NCBI RefSeq assembly: GCF_000422405.1
Contig: NZ_AULS01000002.1
Coordinates: 310,001 to 374,000, forward strand
Reading direction: 5' to 3'
DNA: 64,000 nt
From: Microbacterium luticocti DSM 19459
Lineage (GTDB): Bacteria > Actinomycetota > Actinomycetes > Actinomycetales > Microbacteriaceae
How positions within the stretch are numbered: position 1 is the stretch's first letter; the number at the start of each line of letters is the position of its first letter. Both the position numbers and the translations under genes were made by a program. Of the stretch, positions 14,403 to 21,177 are shown one piece after another. Under the pieces are notes generated by a model, which searched no databases, had not been told where the DNA came from, and was given only the letters and a program-made list of their open reading frames with translations.

Positions 14403-16835
14403 GTGACGCCGACCGAGTCCGCTGCACTGATCGAGTCCGCAGCACACCGTGCCGCCGACGCGCGGGCTGCCGACGTCTCGCCCGCCGAGATCGCCGCCGT
14501 GCTCGATGCGACCGAAGCCGGTGAACGCCTCGATGCAGACGCCGCCTGGGCGCTGCTGCACGCCGAGGGCGCACAGTTCGACCGGCTGCTGCGGGCTGCG
14601 GCATCCGTCCGTGACGAGGGGCTGCGACAGGCCGGGCGCCCCGGGATCATCACCTATTCGCGCAAGGCGTTCGTGCCGCTGACCACGCTGTGCCGCGACC
14701 GCTGCCACTACTGCGTGTTCGTCGACACCCCCGGGCAGCTCGCCAAGCTGCACAAGCCGATGTACATGTCGCCCGACCAGGTGCTCACCGTCGTGCGCCG
14801 TGCGCAGGCGCTCGGCTGCAAAGAGGCGCTGCTCACCCTCGGCGACCGGCCCGAGGACCGGTGGCCGGCCGCCCGCGCCTGGCTCGACGAGCACGGCTAC
14901 GCCTCGACGCTCGATTACGTCGCCGCCATGGCGCGGCTGATCACCGCCGAGACCGGCATGCTCGCGCACGCGAACCCCGGTGTCATGAGCCGGGCCGAGC
15001 TCGAGGCGATGCGCGCGGTCGCACCCTCGATGGGCATGATGCTCGAGACCACCTCGCGGCGGCTGTTCGACGAGCCCGGGCAGGTGCACCACGGCTCCCC
15101 CGACAAGGACCCCGCGATCCGGCTGCAGGTGATCGAGGATGCCGGGGCTGCCCGCATCCCGTTCACCACCGGCATCCTCGTCGGCATCGGCGAGAGGCTG
15201 CGCGACCGCGCCGAGTCGCTGGTCGCGATCCGCGACGCGCACGAACGCCACGGGCACGTGCAGGAGGTGATCGTGCAGAACTTCCGCGCGAAGCCCGGCA
15301 CCGCGATGCGCGCGGCGCCCGACGCCGACCTGCGCGAGTACGTCGCCGCCGTCGCGGTCGCGCGGCTCGCGCTCGGCCCGCGCATGCGCATCCAGGTGCC
15401 GCCGAACCTCTCGGATGCCGCCGAACTGGGGCTGCTCGTGCGCGCCGGCATCGACGACTGGGGCGGGGTGTCGCCGCTGACCGCCGACCACGTCAACCCG
15501 GAGCGACCGTGGCCGCACATCGACGACCTCGCCGCCCGCACGGCGGCGCTCGGCTTCACGCTGCGCGAGCGGCTCACGGCCCACCCCGAGTACGTGCGGG
15601 ATGCCGCGGCCTGGATCGATCCGGGTCTGCATGACGCCGTCGCGGCGCTGGCCGACCCCGAGACCGGGCTGGCACGAGAGGACCGCCCGACCGATCGCGG
15701 GCCGCGAACAGGCTCACGTGCCGCCGGCACCCCCGCCCCGGCGGGGTCGAGCCGTGTGGGCATGTCGACGGTACGCGCCTCGACGGTCACCCGTCTCGCC
15801 GAGGCCGCGGCATCCGACCCGACGGCCCTCGACGACGCCGACTGGGAGCTCGTGCTGCGCGCGACCGGCGCCGACCTCGACGCGCTCACCGGCGTCGCCG
15901 ACGACGTGCGGCGCTACACGGTCGGCGAGGCCGTCGGCATCGTCGTCAACCGCAACCTCACCACGACCGGGTTCCGCACCCGGCCCGAGCCCGACCCGGC
16001 GACCTTCACGCTCGACGACGTCGCCGGGATCGCCGCCGACGCCGCCGACCTCGGCGCCACCGAGCTGTGCATCCAGGGCCGGCTGTCGCCGCAGGCCGAT
16101 CCGGCCGCCTACCTCGACATCGCCCGCGCTGCCACAGGCGTCGTTCCCCGCCTGCACCTGCACGCATACCGCCCGCAGGACGTCTGGGACCTCGCCGACC
16201 GCGGCGGCCTCGGCCTCGAGCGCGCACTCGACGCCCTGCGCGACGCGGGAGTGCGGACCGTGCCCGGCACCGGGGTCAAGGTGCTCAGCGAGCGGGTGCG
16301 GGGCCTCGTCGCACCCGGCGATCTCAAGATCGACCGGTGGATCGAGGGCATCACCGCCGCGCACCGCGCCGGGCTCCGCTCGACGAGCGTGCTGTTCTAC
16401 GGCCACGTCGAGACCGCCGCCGAACGCATCGCCCACCTGCGCCGGCTGCGCGCGATCCAGGAGGTCACCGGCGGCTTCACCGAGTTCGTGCCGATCCCGC
16501 TGCCCGCGCCCGCCGGCGGCGTGCCGCTCGTGCCCGGCCGGGCCGCGATCGACGAGCACCGGGCGATGGTGGCCGTCGCCCGGCTGCTGCTCGGCGAGCG
16601 CATCCCGCACATCCAGATCCCGTGGACCCGCGTCGGCCGCGACGCCGCGAAGACGCTGCTGCAGTGCGGCGGCGACGATCTCGGCGGCACTCTGCTCGAC
16701 GGCCGCGTGCGCCCGCAGGCGGGTGTCGAGTGCGGCCTCGAGCTGCCGGTGACGGATGCCGCGGCCCTCGCCGCGCACCTGTTCCGGCCGTTCCGCGTGC
16801 GCACCACCGACTACGCATCGGTGGCGGACCGATGA
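14403..16835 (+). CDS. fbiC: FO synthase FbiC (CofG-CofH fusion) with degenerate CofH half
   Basis: 810 residues, the usual size of fused FO synthase, which makes the deazaflavin core of coenzyme F420. The CofG half (about 65-420) has the radical-SAM motif CRDRCHYC and a FRAKPGTAM segment. The CofH half (about 465-810) keeps VNRN, ATELCIQG, VPGTGVKVL, YGHVETA, GGFTEFVPIPLP and DLGGTL, but where CX3CX2C should follow VNRN it reads LTTTGFRTRPEPD, with no cysteines. The linker contains a repeat element. GTG start; the stop overlaps the monooxygenase ATG. FO production by this protein alone is doubtful. Confidence 0.88.
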   Translation: MTPTESAALIESAAHRAADARAADVSPAEIAAVLDATEAGERLDADAAWALLHAEGAQFDRLLRAAASVRDEGLRQAGRPGIITYSRKAFVPLTTLCRDRCHYCVFVDTPGQLAKLHKPMYMSPDQVLTVVRRAQALGCKEALLTLGDRPEDRWPAARAWLDEHGYASTLDYVAAMARLITAETGMLAHANPGVMSRAELEAMRAVAPSMGMMLETTSRRLFDEPGQVHHGSPDKDPAIRLQVIEDAGAARIPFTTGILVGIGERLRDRAESLVAIRDAHERHGHVQEVIVQNFRAKPGTAMRAAPDADLREYVAAVAVARLALGPRMRIQVPPNLSDAAELGLLVRAGIDDWGGVSPLTADHVNPERPWPHIDDLAARTAALGFTLRERLTAHPEYVRDAAAWIDPGLHDAVAALADPETGLAREDRPTDRGPRTGSRAAGTPAPAGSSRVGMSTVRASTVTRLAEAAASDPTALDDADWELVLRATGADLDALTGVADDVRRYTVGEAVGIVVNRNLTTTGFRTRPEPDPATFTLDDVAGIAADAADLGATELCIQGRLSPQADPAAYLDIARAATGVVPRLHLHAYRPQDVWDLADRGGLGLERALDALRDAGVRTVPGTGVKVLSERVRGLVAPGDLKIDRWIEGITAAHRAGLRSTSVLFYGHVETAAERIAHLRRLRAIQEVTGGFTEFVPIPLPAPAGGVPLVPGRAAIDEHRAMVAVARLLLGERIPHIQIPWTRVGRDAAKTLLQCGGDDLGGTLLDGRVRPQAGVECGLELPVTDAAALAAHLFRPFRVRTTDYASVADR
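15699..15779. repeat. Short dispersed repeat inside fbiC (copy 1)
   Basis: The right end is an exact 20-base match (GCATGTCGACGGTACGCGCC) to 38003-38022, and the left end (GGGCCG..GAACAGGCT) resembles the left end of that copy at almost the same distance. It encodes part of the linker between the two FbiC halves, so its insertion did not break the frame. Confidence 0.6.
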
Positions 16836-18292
16836 CCCGCGCCGAGGTGGTCGTGGTGGGCGGGGGCTTCGCCGGGCTCGCCGCGGTCATGGCGCTGCGC
16901 GCGCAAGGCATCGACGACGTGATCGTGCTCGAGCGCGCGGCATCGATCGGCGGCACCTGGCGCGACAACACGTATCCGGGCGTCGCGTGCGATGTGCCCA
17001 GTCACCTGTACGGCTTCGCGGACCACCCGTGGCCGCACTGGTCGGGGGTGTTCGCGCGCGGCGATGAGATCCGCGCCTACCTTGAGCGGACCGCCGCCAC
17101 CGAGCGCATCACCCCGTGGCTGTGCACGCCGATGCTCGACGCGAGGTGGGATGCCGCGGCCGACCGCTGGCGGGTGCGCACCGGCGGCGCCCGACCGGGC
17201 GAGATCGACGCCGCCGCGCTGGTGCTCGCGTGCGGGCGGCTCACCGAGCCGCGCATCCCCGACATCCCGGGCCTGGAGTCCTTCCCAGGGCCGATGTTCC
17301 ACACCGCCCGCTGGGACCACGGCGTCGACCTCGACGGCGCCCGCGTCGCCGTCGTGGGCACCGGCGCCTCGGCGGTGCAGCTGGTGCCCCGGCTGGCCCG
17401 GCGCAGCGAGGTGACGCTGTTCCAGCGCACCCCGGCGTGGATCGTGCCCCGCGACGACCGGCCGTACTCCCCCGACGAACAGGACCGGTTCGCCGCCGAT
17501 CCGGCGCTGCTCGAGCGACTGCGCGACGAACTGTACGCCGAGGGCGAGGCCCGGTACGCGTCCCGGTCGGGCGACGCGGATGCCGCGGCCGCCGCCCGCG
17601 CGGCGGCGCTGGCGCACCTGCACGCGCAGGTGCCCGACCCGCGACTGCGCGCCGAGCTCACGCCCGACTACGCGTTCGGGTGCAAGCGGGTGCTGCTGTC
17701 GGACGAATTCTATCCGGCGCTGGCGTCCGGACGGGTGCGGCTGGAGGCATCCGCCCTCGCCACCGTCGAGGGCCGTACGCTCGTCGCCGCGAGCGGCGCC
17801 CGGCACGAAGCTGATGTGCTGGTGCTGGCGACCGGGTTCCACTCGACCCGGCAGCCGTACGCCGAGCTGGTGCGGGGCGAGACGCAGACCCTCGCCGCGC
17901 ACTGGTCGGCGGGGATGACCTCGTTCGCCTCGACCGTGGTCGCCGGGTTCCCGAACCTGTTCGTGCTCGACGGGCCGAACGCGTCGCTCGGGCACAACTC
18001 CTCCGTGCTGATGATGGAGGCGCAGGCCGGGTACGTCGCCCGCACCCTCGCCGGCCGCGCCGGGGTGCTGCGCGTCGACCCGCGCGCCGAGGCCGCGTAC
18101 ACCGCCGAGATCGACGAGGCTGCGGCATCCACGCCATGGGTCGCGGGCGGATGCCGCAACTGGTACGTCGACGAGCGGTCGGGCCGGCTCACGCTGCTGT
18201 GGCCCGGCACCGTCGACGCGTTCCGCGACCGGCTGGCCAAAGCCTGCGGCGACGAGTTCCTGCCCGTGACCCTGGAGAGGGGAAAACGATGA
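16832..18292 (+). CDS. Baeyer-Villiger-type flavin monooxygenase
   Basis: 486 residues. FAD-binding GGGFAGLAA near residue 10, a GGTWRDNTYPGVACDVPSHL segment, the Baeyer-Villiger fingerprint FPGPMFHTARWD at about 150-161, and an NADPH-binding VGTGASAVQLVPRLA near 175. Such enzymes insert oxygen next to a carbonyl using NADPH and O2. It sits between fbiC and fgd with ATGA overlaps on both sides, so it is co-expressed with F420 genes. Whether it has a role with F420, or simply shares the operon, is unknown. Confidence 0.87.
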   Translation: MTRAEVVVVGGGFAGLAAVMALRAQGIDDVIVLERAASIGGTWRDNTYPGVACDVPSHLYGFADHPWPHWSGVFARGDEIRAYLERTAATERITPWLCTPMLDARWDAAADRWRVRTGGARPGEIDAAALVLACGRLTEPRIPDIPGLESFPGPMFHTARWDHGVDLDGARVAVVGTGASAVQLVPRLARRSEVTLFQRTPAWIVPRDDRPYSPDEQDRFAADPALLERLRDELYAEGEARYASRSGDADAAAAARAAALAHLHAQVPDPRLRAELTPDYAFGCKRVLLSDEFYPALASGRVRLEASALATVEGRTLVAASGARHEADVLVLATGFHSTRQPYAELVRGETQTLAAHWSAGMTSFASTVVAGFPNLFVLDGPNASLGHNSSVLMMEAQAGYVARTLAGRAGVLRVDPRAEAAYTAEIDEAAASTPWVAGGCRNWYVDERSGRLTLLWPGTVDAFRDRLAKACGDEFLPVTLERGKR

Positions 18293-19296
18293 GGCTCCGG
18301 TTCGGATACAAGGCCTCGAGCGAGCAGTTCGGCCCGGCCGACCTGCTGCGCTTCGGCGTGCTGGCCGAGCAGATGGGGTTCGACTCGGTCTTTCTGTCCG
18401 ACCACTTCCAACCGTGGATGCACGAGGGCGGTCACGCGCCCGCGGCGCTGCCGTGGCTCGGCGCGCTCGGCGCCCGCACGCAGCGGGTGCTCATCGGCAC
18501 CTCGGTGCTGACCCCGACGTTCCGGTACCACCCGGCGGTGATCGCGCAGGCGTTCGCGACGCTCGGGGTGCTGTACCCCGAGCGGGTGATCCTCGGGGTC
18601 GGCACCGGCGAGGCGCTCAACGAGGTGACGCTGGGCCTTGACTGGCCCGACCCGCCCGAGCGGTTCCAGCGGCTGAAAGAGGCGATCACGCTGATCCGTG
18701 AGCTGTGGCGCGGCGAGCGGGTGAGCTTCGACGGCCGGTTCTGGCAGGTGACGGATGCCACGGTCTACGACCGTCCGCACCACGAGGTGCCGATCTACAT
18801 CGGCGCCTCGGGTCCGGCGGCGACGCGGCTGGCGGGGCGGATCGCCGACGGTTACATCACCACGAGCGGCAAGGACCGGGCGCTGTACACCGACACGCTG
18901 CTGCCCGCGCTCGAGGAGGGGCTCGCCAAGGCGGGACGGTCGGCAGACGAGGTCGACACCCTCATGGAGGTGAAGGTCTCGTACCATCCCGACCGGGAGG
19001 TCGCGCTGGGCAAGACGCGGTTCTGGGCGCCGCTCGCGCTGTCGCCCGAGGAGAAGCGCGACGTGCACGACCCGATCGAGATGCAGCGGCGCGCCGCCGA
19101 GCTGCCGATCGAGCGGGTGGCGCAGCGGTTCATCGTCTCGACCGACCCCGACGAGCACGTCGAGCGGATCGGCGAGTACATCGAGCTCGGGTTCCGGCAC
19201 CTGGTGTTCCACGACCCGGGCGCCGATCAGGAGGAGTTCCTGCGCATGTACGGTGCCGAGATCCTGCCCCGGCTGCGGGCGCGGTACGGGTCGTGA
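18289..19296 (+). CDS. fgd: F420-dependent glucose-6-phosphate dehydrogenase
   Basis: 335 residues of the luciferase-like F420 family, closely resembling mycobacterial FGD1 along its length: LRFGYKASSEQF, SDHFQPWMHEGGHAP, LGTSVLTPTFRYHPAVIAQ-like sequence, GVGTGEALNE, TSGKD and TRFWAPLALS. His39 and Glu108 match the catalytic pair of FGD1. It reduces F420 with glucose-6-phosphate, supplying F420H2. AGAGGGGAAAACG precedes the ATG, which overlaps the monooxygenase stop. Confidence 0.93.
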   Translation: MRLRFGYKASSEQFGPADLLRFGVLAEQMGFDSVFLSDHFQPWMHEGGHAPAALPWLGALGARTQRVLIGTSVLTPTFRYHPAVIAQAFATLGVLYPERVILGVGTGEALNEVTLGLDWPDPPERFQRLKEAITLIRELWRGERVSFDGRFWQVTDATVYDRPHHEVPIYIGASGPAATRLAGRIADGYITTSGKDRALYTDTLLPALEEGLAKAGRSADEVDTLMEVKVSYHPDREVALGKTRFWAPLALSPEEKRDVHDPIEMQRRAAELPIERVAQRFIVSTDPDEHVERIGEYIELGFRHLVFHDPGADQEEFLRMYGAEILPRLRARYGS

Positions 19297-19356: not shown

Positions 19357-20046
19357 GTGGACGATGACATGCCGCCGTTCGGCACGGCCTGGACCGACGG
19401 CGTCCCGGACTGGACCGTCGTCGTCCCGGTCAAGCCGAGCGCGCGCGGCAAGTCGCGGCTCGCCACGGGCGTCGACCGGGCGGCGCTGGCCCGCGCGATC
19501 GCGCTCGACACCATCGCCGCGGCGGCCGCGGTGTGCGCGGTCATCGTGGTGACCGACGACGCCGAGGTGGCCGCGGCCGCACGGCAACTCGGCGCGACCG
19601 TCGTCGGCGAGGGCGGCGGCCGGGGCGAGGGCGGTGGCCGCGGCGAGGGCGAGGGCGGGGGCGGGGGCCTGAACGCGGCGGTGGCGCGCGGGGTGGCCGC
19701 GGCCGGCGACGGCCACCGAGCGGCGCTGCTGGGCGACCTGCCCGCGCTGCGCCCGGCGCAGCTGACGAGTGCGCTCGAGGCCGCGGCATCCGTCGACCGG
19801 GCGGTGGTGCCGGATGCCGAGGGCACCGGTTCGACGCTGGTCACCACCCGCGCGGGGGTGCCGTGGGCGTCGGCGTTCGGCGAGGGGTCGCTGGCGCGGC
19901 ACGTCGCGCTCGGGTGCGCGGTGCTGCCGGTTCCGGATGCCTCGACGCTGCGCCGCGACGTCGACACCGTCGATCAGCTTGCCGCCGCCGCCCGGCTGGG
20001 CCTCGGCCCCCGCACGGCCGCGCTCTGGCCGGGCGCCGGTCGCTGA
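19357..20046 (+). CDS. fbiD: 2-phospho-L-lactate/phosphoenolpyruvate guanylyltransferase (CofC/FbiD)
   Basis: 229 residues. VVPVKPSARGKSRLA is the nucleotide-binding start of CofC/FbiD enzymes, followed by VVTDD, GGGLNAAVARG and LLGDLPALRPAQL. It activates the F420 side-chain precursor with GTP before FbiA uses it. Residues 84-104 are an unusual Gly/Glu/Arg run encoded by an imperfect GGCGAG-rich DNA repeat, inserted just before the conserved GGGLN loop. GTG start at 19357. It lies downstream of fgd on the same strand after 60 bases. Confidence 0.87.
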   Translation: MDDDMPPFGTAWTDGVPDWTVVVPVKPSARGKSRLATGVDRAALARAIALDTIAAAAAVCAVIVVTDDAEVAAAARQLGATVVGEGGGRGEGGGRGEGEGGGGGLNAAVARGVAAAGDGHRAALLGDLPALRPAQLTSALEAAASVDRAVVPDAEGTGSTLVTTRAGVPWASAFGEGSLARHVALGCAVLPVPDASTLRRDVDTVDQLAAAARLGLGPRTAALWPGAGR

Positions 20047-20220: not shown

Positions 20221-21177
20221 CTACGCCTCGAGCGCGGCGTCGACGATCGCGGCGGAGGCCGCGGCATCCGTCATCCACAGCGGCGACACGACCGGCCGCA
20301 CGCCGAGCGCCGCGACCTCGGGCGCGAGCGCCGCGTCCTCCTCGGCCATCACCCACGCGTCGAGCAGCCCGCCCGCGGCACGCGCGCCATAATGCCCGGC
20401 CACCGCGGCGGCCGTGGTCGGCACGCCGATCGCCGCCAGGCACACGTCGGCCATGCCGCGCACGACCGCGCCGCCGATGATGCCCGACACCCCGACCACC
20501 CGCGCCGGAGTCGCCCGCAGCGCGTCGCGCACGCCCGGCACCGCGAGGATCGGCCCGATCGAGACGACCGGGTTCGAGGGCGCGAGAAGCACCACATCCG
20601 CCTCGGCGATCGCCTCGCGCACGCCGGGCGCGGGCACGGCCGCCTCGATGCCCGGGTTCTCGAACGCCCGCGGCGCCGGCGCGGCCCGATGCCGCGTCCA
20701 CCATTCCTGGAAGTGCATCCGACCGGCATCCGTCACCACATGCGTGTCGACCTCGCTGTCGGTCATCGGCAGCAGCCGCACCCCGATCGGCCAGCGCCGC
20801 GACAGCCGCGCGACGACCTCGGTGACCGAGGCGCCCTCGCGCAGCCATCCGGTGCGCGCCAGGTGGGTGCCCAGATCGAGGTCGCCGAGCGTGAACCACG
20901 GCCATCCCGCGCCCCACGCCTGCAGCTCGTCGTTCACCCGCTCGGTGTCACCGGCCCGCCCCCAGCCGCGGGCGGTGTCGTTCACCCCGGCCAGCGCGTA
21001 CAGGATCGAGTCGACGTCGGGCTGCAGCCGCACGCCCGACAGCCACAGGTCGTCGCCGGTGTTCACGACGACCGTGGCGGGCGGTGCGCCGCGTCGGGCC
21101 AACGCTTCGCGCACGCCGAGCGTGAACTTCGCCCCGCCCACGCCGCCGGCCAGCACGACGACACGAAGGGATGCCAC
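20221..21177 (-). CDS. fbiA: 2-phospho-L-lactate transferase (CofD/FbiA)
   Basis: 318 residues with the CofD hallmarks: VVLAGGVGGAKFTLGVREAL at the start, VVNTGDDLWLSGVRLQPD, GWFTLGDLDLGTHL-type segment, and LAPSNPVVSIGPILAVPG. It joins the FbiD product to FO to give (dehydro-)F420-0. It follows hemD by 14 bases and is convergent with fbiD. FbiB, the ligase that adds glutamates, is not in the window. Confidence 0.92.
   Translation of the reverse strand: MASLRVVVLAGGVGGAKFTLGVREALARRGAPPATVVVNTGDDLWLSGVRLQPDVDSILYALAGVNDTARGWGRAGDTERVNDELQAWGAGWPWFTLGDLDLGTHLARTGWLREGASVTEVVARLSRRWPIGVRLLPMTDSEVDTHVVTDAGRMHFQEWWTRHRAAPAPRAFENPGIEAAVPAPGVREAIAEADVVLLAPSNPVVSIGPILAVPGVRDALRATPARVVGVSGIIGGAVVRGMADVCLAAIGVPTTAAAVAGHYGARAAGGLLDAWVMAEEDAALAPEVAALGVRPVVSPLWMTDAAASAAIVDAALEA

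Follow-up and report, generated by a model that had tools for sequence, protein, structure and literature searches.

The window, a stretch of 64,000 nucleotides from Microbacterium luticocti DSM 19459, carries on its forward strand a gene for a fused CofG and CofH protein (14403..16835), which is an open frame of 810 aa with a GTG start and is recognised by NCBIfam profiles; residue numbers for its product count from this GTG. We refer to the gene as fbiC-prime, and to its second half, a CofH part devoid of the cluster cysteines, as CofH-prime. The next gene, at 16832..18292 on the same strand, encodes a flavin monooxygenase (FMO) that resembles type I Baeyer-Villiger monooxygenases (BVMOs), and its ATG overlaps the fbiC stop (ATGA). 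The FMO stop is overlapped in turn (ATGA) by the ATG of FGD, F420-dependent glucose-6-phosphate dehydrogenase (18289..19296, forward strand; TIGR03554 464.6 bits, cut-off 420). Further downstream lie fbiD/cofC, whose start codon is uncertain (19357..20046, forward strand; TIGR03552 124.4 bits, cut-off 105), and fbiA/cofD (20221..21177, reverse strand; TIGR01819 311 bits, cut-off 257.45), and CofE is present in the genome. Promoter, terminator and ribosome-site scans gave nothing useful.

The CofG half is normal, as the initial annotation had it: its cluster motif CRDRCHYC (C97, C101 and C104; 14691..14714, forward strand) is intact, and TIGR03550 scores 477.8 bits on fbiC-prime, above its cut-off of 213.35. 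In the CofH half, the VNRN motif (residues 515-518; 15945..15956, forward strand) is retained, with R517 found in 74/74 and N518 in 72/74 Cys-less sequences, and it is followed by LTTTGFRTRPEPD; the segment that takes the place of the CX3CX2C loop (15957..16052, forward strand) has no cysteine. The stretch 15930-16040 reads AVGIVVNRNLTTTGFRTRPEPDPATFTLDDVAGIAAD in the frame of the single 810-aa ORF, and the first cysteine after VNRN is C556, inside GATELC. TIGR03551, the profile of CofH as the radical-SAM tyrosine:diaminouracil hydroxyphenyl transferase, reaches 306.1 bits on fbiC-prime, under its cut-off of 374.1 (267.5 bits in the genome search). The CofH half alone matches PF04055 (Radical_SAM) with 32.0 bits, just above the gathering score of 29.5, over profile positions 20-165 of 166, which leaves the profile start uncovered.

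The same contrast separates two large groups of sequences. Between NRN and GATE-C, all 92 canonical sequences have 43-44 residues with three cysteines, and all 74 Cys-less sequences have 22 to 63 residues with no cysteine; these counts, like those of the switched residues below, use 74 of 76 Cys-less rows (the loci L146 and L002 were dropped) and all 92 canonical rows. Among full-length FbiC proteins, the CofG cysteines are kept in 117/117, and the CofH cysteines are kept in 75 and absent in 42. The absence of CX3CX2C after VNRN reported by the initial annotation is thus confirmed, and the other cysteine trio that it allowed for in the fold position does not occur in the segment of any of the 74 sequences. 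G560, the second glycine of QGG, is also kept in 0/74 Cys-less sequences; such a glycine pair contributes to SAM binding in the radical-SAM superfamily. With the cluster ligands and this glycine both missing, CofH-prime should not act as a radical-SAM enzyme, which agrees with the earlier reading of the half as unfit for that role, as far as sequence can tell.

The loss is not peculiar to one genome. In a sample of 249 Microbacteriaceae genomes, 42 have the Cys-less form, 15 have the canonical form and none has both; one further genome (G177) holds only a remnant at a contig edge, with an FMO. The loss is therefore common in Microbacteriaceae FbiC, a point that the initial annotation had raised for checking (42 of 57 sampled genomes in which a CofH half was found). 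Among the samples searched, the Cys-less form was found in much of this family and, within the order, in families f8, f9 and f15; it also occurs in Promicromonospora (L010) and in a single genome from another order (G824), whose congener G814 has a canonical fbiC. An order-level sample gave 55 matches, three of them already in the family sample; of the remaining 52, we classified 35, which comprise 20 Cys-less loci with an FMO and 15 canonical loci without one. In a phylum-level sample with matches in 214/396 genomes, the loci L244-L274 were checked among the matches listed, and a regular expression detected the canonical motif in 30 of these 31, the exception being L270.

Since the same loss recurs in 42 of 57 Microbacteriaceae genomes, in other families and in another order, it is not a local assembly deletion, which the initial annotation had named as a possible cause. 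The frame is open over all 810 aa and the trait is shared by dozens of genomes, so that its statement that no frameshift is involved also stands, and we regard an assembly error or frameshift behind the loss as ruled out. A second CofH, another of its suggestions, was not found in the genome itself (99.97% complete), and the matches in the 42 Microbacteriaceae genomes with the Cys-less form include none either.

We next consider how the two forms are related. With the loop columns removed, a CofH tree separates 54 Cys-less from 11 canonical sequences by one branch with an SH-aLRT of 100; the rows were thinned by similarity to these numbers, only 11 of them are canonical, and this tree, like that of the FMOs below, is a quick tree with a midpoint root. 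Loss of the cysteines is an old trait held in common. Cys-less and canonical forms alternate within three genera (g12 and g77, each in different species, and g181), and such swaps suggest that both forms do the same job. Three loci deserve separate mention. In the CofH and FMO trees alike, a locus titled Acidobacteriaceae (L015) groups with that of Promicromonospora and with one from Microbacteriaceae, which suggests that it is probably a mis-binned contig. A locus with a canonical CofH half (L191, G281:C1:242928-243986) has one in-frame TAG inside the match. At L145 (G099:C214), cofG and CofH-prime occupy two ORFs (481 and 367 aa) of a single contig, either as separate genes or through a frameshift.

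The initial annotation did not mention the adjacent FMO, which we consider the key to the Cys-less CofH half. Type I BVMOs are recognised by two dinucleotide-binding motifs that flank F-x-G-x3-H-x3-W-[PD], and the window FMO has both motifs together with this fingerprint, as FPGPMFHTARWD (17282..17317, forward strand). The strict fingerprint occurs in 51/73 linked FMOs and is missing in 22/73. Residues D54 (16991..16993, forward strand) and R286 (17687..17689, forward strand) align with D66 and R337 of phenylacetone monooxygenase (PAMO), and both are invariant in 16 aligned FMOs. A structural model of the FMO (pLDDT 87.1) has cyclohexanone monooxygenase (CHMO) 5m0z as its nearest fold (Z 37.8, rmsd 2.5, 466 aligned) and matches PAMO 2ylw with Z 37.3; among the titles of the matched structures are studies of oxygen activation with the mutants Asp66Ala and Arg337Lys. 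The fingerprint, the PAMO-like D/R pair and the BVMO best folds favour insertion next to a carbonyl.

The FMO is associated with CofH-prime. Of 76 non-redundant Cys-less loci, 73 contain it, as against 0 of 92 canonical loci; loci were taken as non-redundant if they differ within a 180-residue stretch of the CofH half, and the FMO as present if any part of the locus, with flanks of about 1.5 kb to 8 kb or more, gave a match at E <= 1e-30. Of the three Cys-less loci without it, one is a fragment (L146, from G198), one lies on a contig that stops 64 bases further downstream (L151), and L002 is a shortened copy of the locus in the window itself; in the genome of L151, G116, an FMO lies at a contig edge elsewhere (L166). 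In the first set that we compiled, the FMO lies downstream on the same strand in 43/45 Cys-less loci and 0/75 canonical ones, and in the Microbacteriaceae sample it was obtained with 41/42 Cys-less and 0/15 canonical forms, the FMO of G116 being counted from its separate contig. Clustering of neighbouring genes recovered the FMO cluster in 31/44 Cys-less and 0/12 canonical loci, a count that omits the window's own FMO, which was masked by a longer shadow ORF. Conversely, FMO matches at E <= 1e-40 occur without a Cys-less CofH in 26/249 genomes, three of which have canonical FbiC (at most six candidates were scored per genome).

Other neighbours were also considered as the missing enzyme and rejected: the clusters absent from canonical loci, which are unannotated, reach at most 10/44 Cys-less loci. 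No aminotransferase-like cluster was recognised by eye among the unannotated neighbour clusters listed. At L149 (G183:C56, from 2656 onward), a gene that we read by eye from unannotated sequence as alpha/beta hydrolase-like lies near or between fbiC-prime and the FMO, and belongs to a cluster of three loci.

Loci in which the CofG and CofH parts are separate show which of them the FMO accompanies. In 16 loci of families f15 and f8 (L202-L217), cofH-prime is a standalone gene followed by the FMO, and cofG lies on the opposite strand in every locus that includes it, 15 in all (L206 is truncated by its contig). One genome (G155) has cofH-prime and the FMO on one contig and cofG on another, and the gene order in G824 is cofH-prime, FMO, cofG. 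Of these 18 loci with a standalone cofH-prime, 17 have cofG on the other strand or away from the pair. In gene arrangement, then, the FMO follows cofH-prime and not cofG, and the two form a unit.

The linked FMOs form one clade (49 rows, SH-aLRT 100), apart from 20 non-adjacent FMOs. Pairwise distances of CofH-prime and FMO correlate with r 0.75 over 49 sequences each, and 0 of 2000 permutations gave a value as high; for both the tree and this test, five of the 54 rows were dropped because their FMO is shorter than 430 residues. As the loss of the cysteines and the pairing each lie on one branch, the association is best counted as one event kept over time, rather than as many independent ones. 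One locus (L130, from G056) has very long branches, 1.54 for CofH-prime and 2.09 for the FMO, and the pair thus appears to have diverged together there. At L146 (G198:C17), cofG and CofH-prime are in separate pieces, CofE and CofD are partial and there is no FMO; the F420 pathway of this genome is apparently in decay.

The two halves of the fused proteins have fared differently. Of the 148 CofG columns that are near-invariant in canonical proteins, 118 persist in 95% or more of the Cys-less sequences and only one is nearly gone, whereas CofH-prime keeps 50 of 141 such columns and has nearly lost 36. The conservation of CofG implies that its substrate, the product of CofH, is probably unchanged. 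Three positions of the CofH half are switched almost without exception: residue 590 (16170..16172, forward strand) is S in 92/92 canonical and R in 74/74 Cys-less sequences, residue 670 (16410..16412, forward strand) changes from D in 92/92 to E in 74/74, and residue 767 (16701..16703, forward strand) from E in 92/92 to G in 73/74. At the same time, conservation reaches 97% or more in both forms at 43 residues of the half, and these include R517, N518, E554, C556, Q558, H585 and H587, as well as E694, Q738, W741 and D759. The median dN/dS is 0.26 for CofH-prime (105 pairs) and 0.28 for the FMO, with pairs picked by similarity and by dS < 2. These ratios indicate that purifying selection acts on the CofH half, which is not junk. 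The model of CofH-prime (pLDDT 92.8) is predicted to adopt the CofH/MqnE barrel fold, and its nearest solved fold is MqnE (6xi9; Z 35.6, rmsd 2.5, 317 aligned).

Genomes with the Cys-less form also carry other genes of the pathway. All 42 such genomes of the family sample have matches to CofD (partial in G099 and G198) and to CofE (partial in G198), so that on gene content F420 is still expected in them. A loss of F420 synthesis, as the initial annotation had contemplated, is not supported, given FGD, CofC and CofD above their cut-offs nearby, CofE in the genome and purifying selection on the half. In two publications, Microbacterium species are said to carry both FGD and FSD genes (PMC6279831), and Microbacterium is listed among Fgd holders (PMC8498797), which agrees with F420 use. 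Among the open-access titles and abstracts listed as matches, we found no measurement of F420 in these genera.

A separate observation concerns 53 of the 249 Microbacteriaceae genomes (for example G006, G016, G040 and G078), which have CofD without an FO synthase. TIGR01819 is above its cut-off in 53/53 and CofE is strong in 52, and these genomes have no CofH match of weight and no CofG above cut-off, with weak matches only in G135 and G240; the count omits G009, where CofD is in two pieces, and G144 and G196, which have weak matches. FO may therefore be obtained otherwise in some Microbacteriaceae, and these genomes are possible FO auxotrophs that salvage FO, or may hold a third FO route.

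On the evidence of sequence and gene context, it is quite probable that CofH-prime and the FMO share a joint role in FO synthesis, and we rather favour the hypothesis that two proteins acting together, with O2 and without radical chemistry, have taken over the step of the radical-SAM CofH. This proposal is founded on an intact CofG, a predicted CofH-prime barrel that keeps its conserved residues and an accompanying FMO of a clade of its own. A non-radical substitute for CofH would require an electrophilic 4-hydroxybenzyl donor, and the FMO could make such an activated donor from a tyrosine-derived keto acid. Most economically, 4-hydroxyphenylpyruvate, O2 and NADPH would give 4-hydroxybenzyl oxalate by Baeyer-Villiger insertion; PAMO performs the same arylmethyl-ketone insertion when it converts phenylacetone to benzyl acetate. 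The oxalate ester would then expel oxalate to leave a p-quinone methide. CofH-prime, whose barrel has probably shed its SAM site too, may bind 5-amino-6-ribitylaminouracil, so that C5, its natural nucleophile, attacks the quinone methide. The adduct would be the normal CofH product, which CofG could cyclise to FO by its usual radical chemistry. We infer this mechanism from the nearest enzymes and known chemistry. The exact conversion of 4-hydroxyphenylpyruvate to a quinone methide donor by the FMO is accordingly put forward tentatively, and so is the wider picture of a second, polar and O2-dependent FO route, in which a BVMO would supply the donor and a former radical-SAM barrel, having shed its cluster, would form the C-C bond. 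One review describes the two FbiC domains as apparently independent in their action, with the intermediate diffusing between them (PMC8498797), which fits a separable CofH part.

The two proteins could also fill the same joint role by other chemistry, with CofH-prime joining the parts and the FMO acting on tyrosine (by N-hydroxylation or decarboxylation), on 4-hydroxyphenylacetaldehyde (to give 4-hydroxybenzyl formate) or on the uracil. We give this a minor but appreciable chance, which overlaps with that of the joint role itself, for the flavin monooxygenase superfamily has N-hydroxylating members and the 22 linked FMOs without the strict fingerprint leave room for it; the fingerprint, D/R pair and best folds of the window FMO, however, speak for Baeyer-Villiger chemistry. 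It is also conceivable, although improbable, that CofG, CofH-prime and the FMO yield a different deazaflavin or another product instead of FO. The deep remodelling of CofH-prime, with 36 of 141 near-invariant residues nearly gone, would suit a new product, but CofG is not remodelled (1 of 148), FGD, CofC, CofD and CofE remain, and the two forms swap within genera and were not found together. A protein making another product, as the initial annotation had also suggested, thus seems less likely than a replaced route, and none of its three alternatives is the best reading.

Two further explanations were considered. If the CofG half performed both radical steps, as the retention of its cluster cysteines in all 117 full-length FbiC proteins compared would permit, CofH-prime might merely hold the substrate, and the FMO would be an accessory of F420 metabolism. 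Yet the FMO stays with CofH-prime where cofG is elsewhere, it is found in none of the 92 canonical loci, and CofG shows no comparable change, which makes this explanation very improbable. We hold it to be slightly less probable still that CofH-prime is a decaying relic, with FO salvaged from neighbours and the FMO a hitch-hiking detoxification gene. The 53 related genomes that have CofD and no FO synthase, and the lower conservation of CofH-prime relative to CofG, are what such decay might produce, but against it stand the 43 residues of the half conserved in both forms, a dN/dS of about 0.26, the lack of any stop inside CofH-prime among the matches listed, and its co-divergence with the FMO. 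Where the half is indeed fragmentary, in G198, the FMO was not found, and CofD and CofE are likewise matched only in part.

The original observation is thus confirmed and general, the interpretation first placed on it holds only in part, and the FMO makes it a testable case of a new FO route. The pairing of a Cys-less CofH with an FMO in many actinobacteria suggests a second, O2-dependent way to F420. According to a 2021 review, every F420 producer studied makes FO by one universal mechanism that relies on two SAM-radical domain enzymes (PMC8498797). Among the matches listed, no open-access title or abstract describes a CofH without the cysteines or an FMO that takes part in FO synthesis. If our proposal is correct, an O2-dependent substitute for CofH breaks the rule of two SAM-radical domains for FO, and a radical-SAM domain has been kept after the loss of its chemistry. 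Across much of Microbacteriaceae, and outside that family as well, an O2-using pair would then have taken over from a radical enzyme in a core cofactor pathway. The apparent FbiC of many genomes would need a different reading, and a further route to FO and F420 production for biocatalysis might become available.

Compared with known systems, fbiC-prime shares with the FO synthase FbiC, or CofG plus CofH, its fusion order, an intact CofG, a CofH-type sequence and predicted fold, the neighbours cofC, cofD and fgd, and probably the same product, FO. It differs from FbiC in that its CofH half has no cluster ligands, has lost G560, carries the three fixed switches, scores below the CofH cut-off and is accompanied by the FMO. 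The closest solved fold of CofH-prime belongs to the aminofutalosine synthase MqnE (6xi9), which is a radical-SAM enzyme, whereas CofH-prime is without the cluster motif. With the type I BVMOs CHMO (5m0z, 7v8o) and PAMO (1w4x, 2ylw), the FMO shares its fold, the fingerprint and the D/R pair; unlike them, it has 486 aa rather than 540 or more, is only about 30% identical to them and goes with CofH-prime. Other FMO- or BVMO-like proteins of Microbacteriaceae are 36-49% identical to the window FMO, and the 20 non-adjacent ones compared fall outside the clade of the FMOs linked to CofH-prime.
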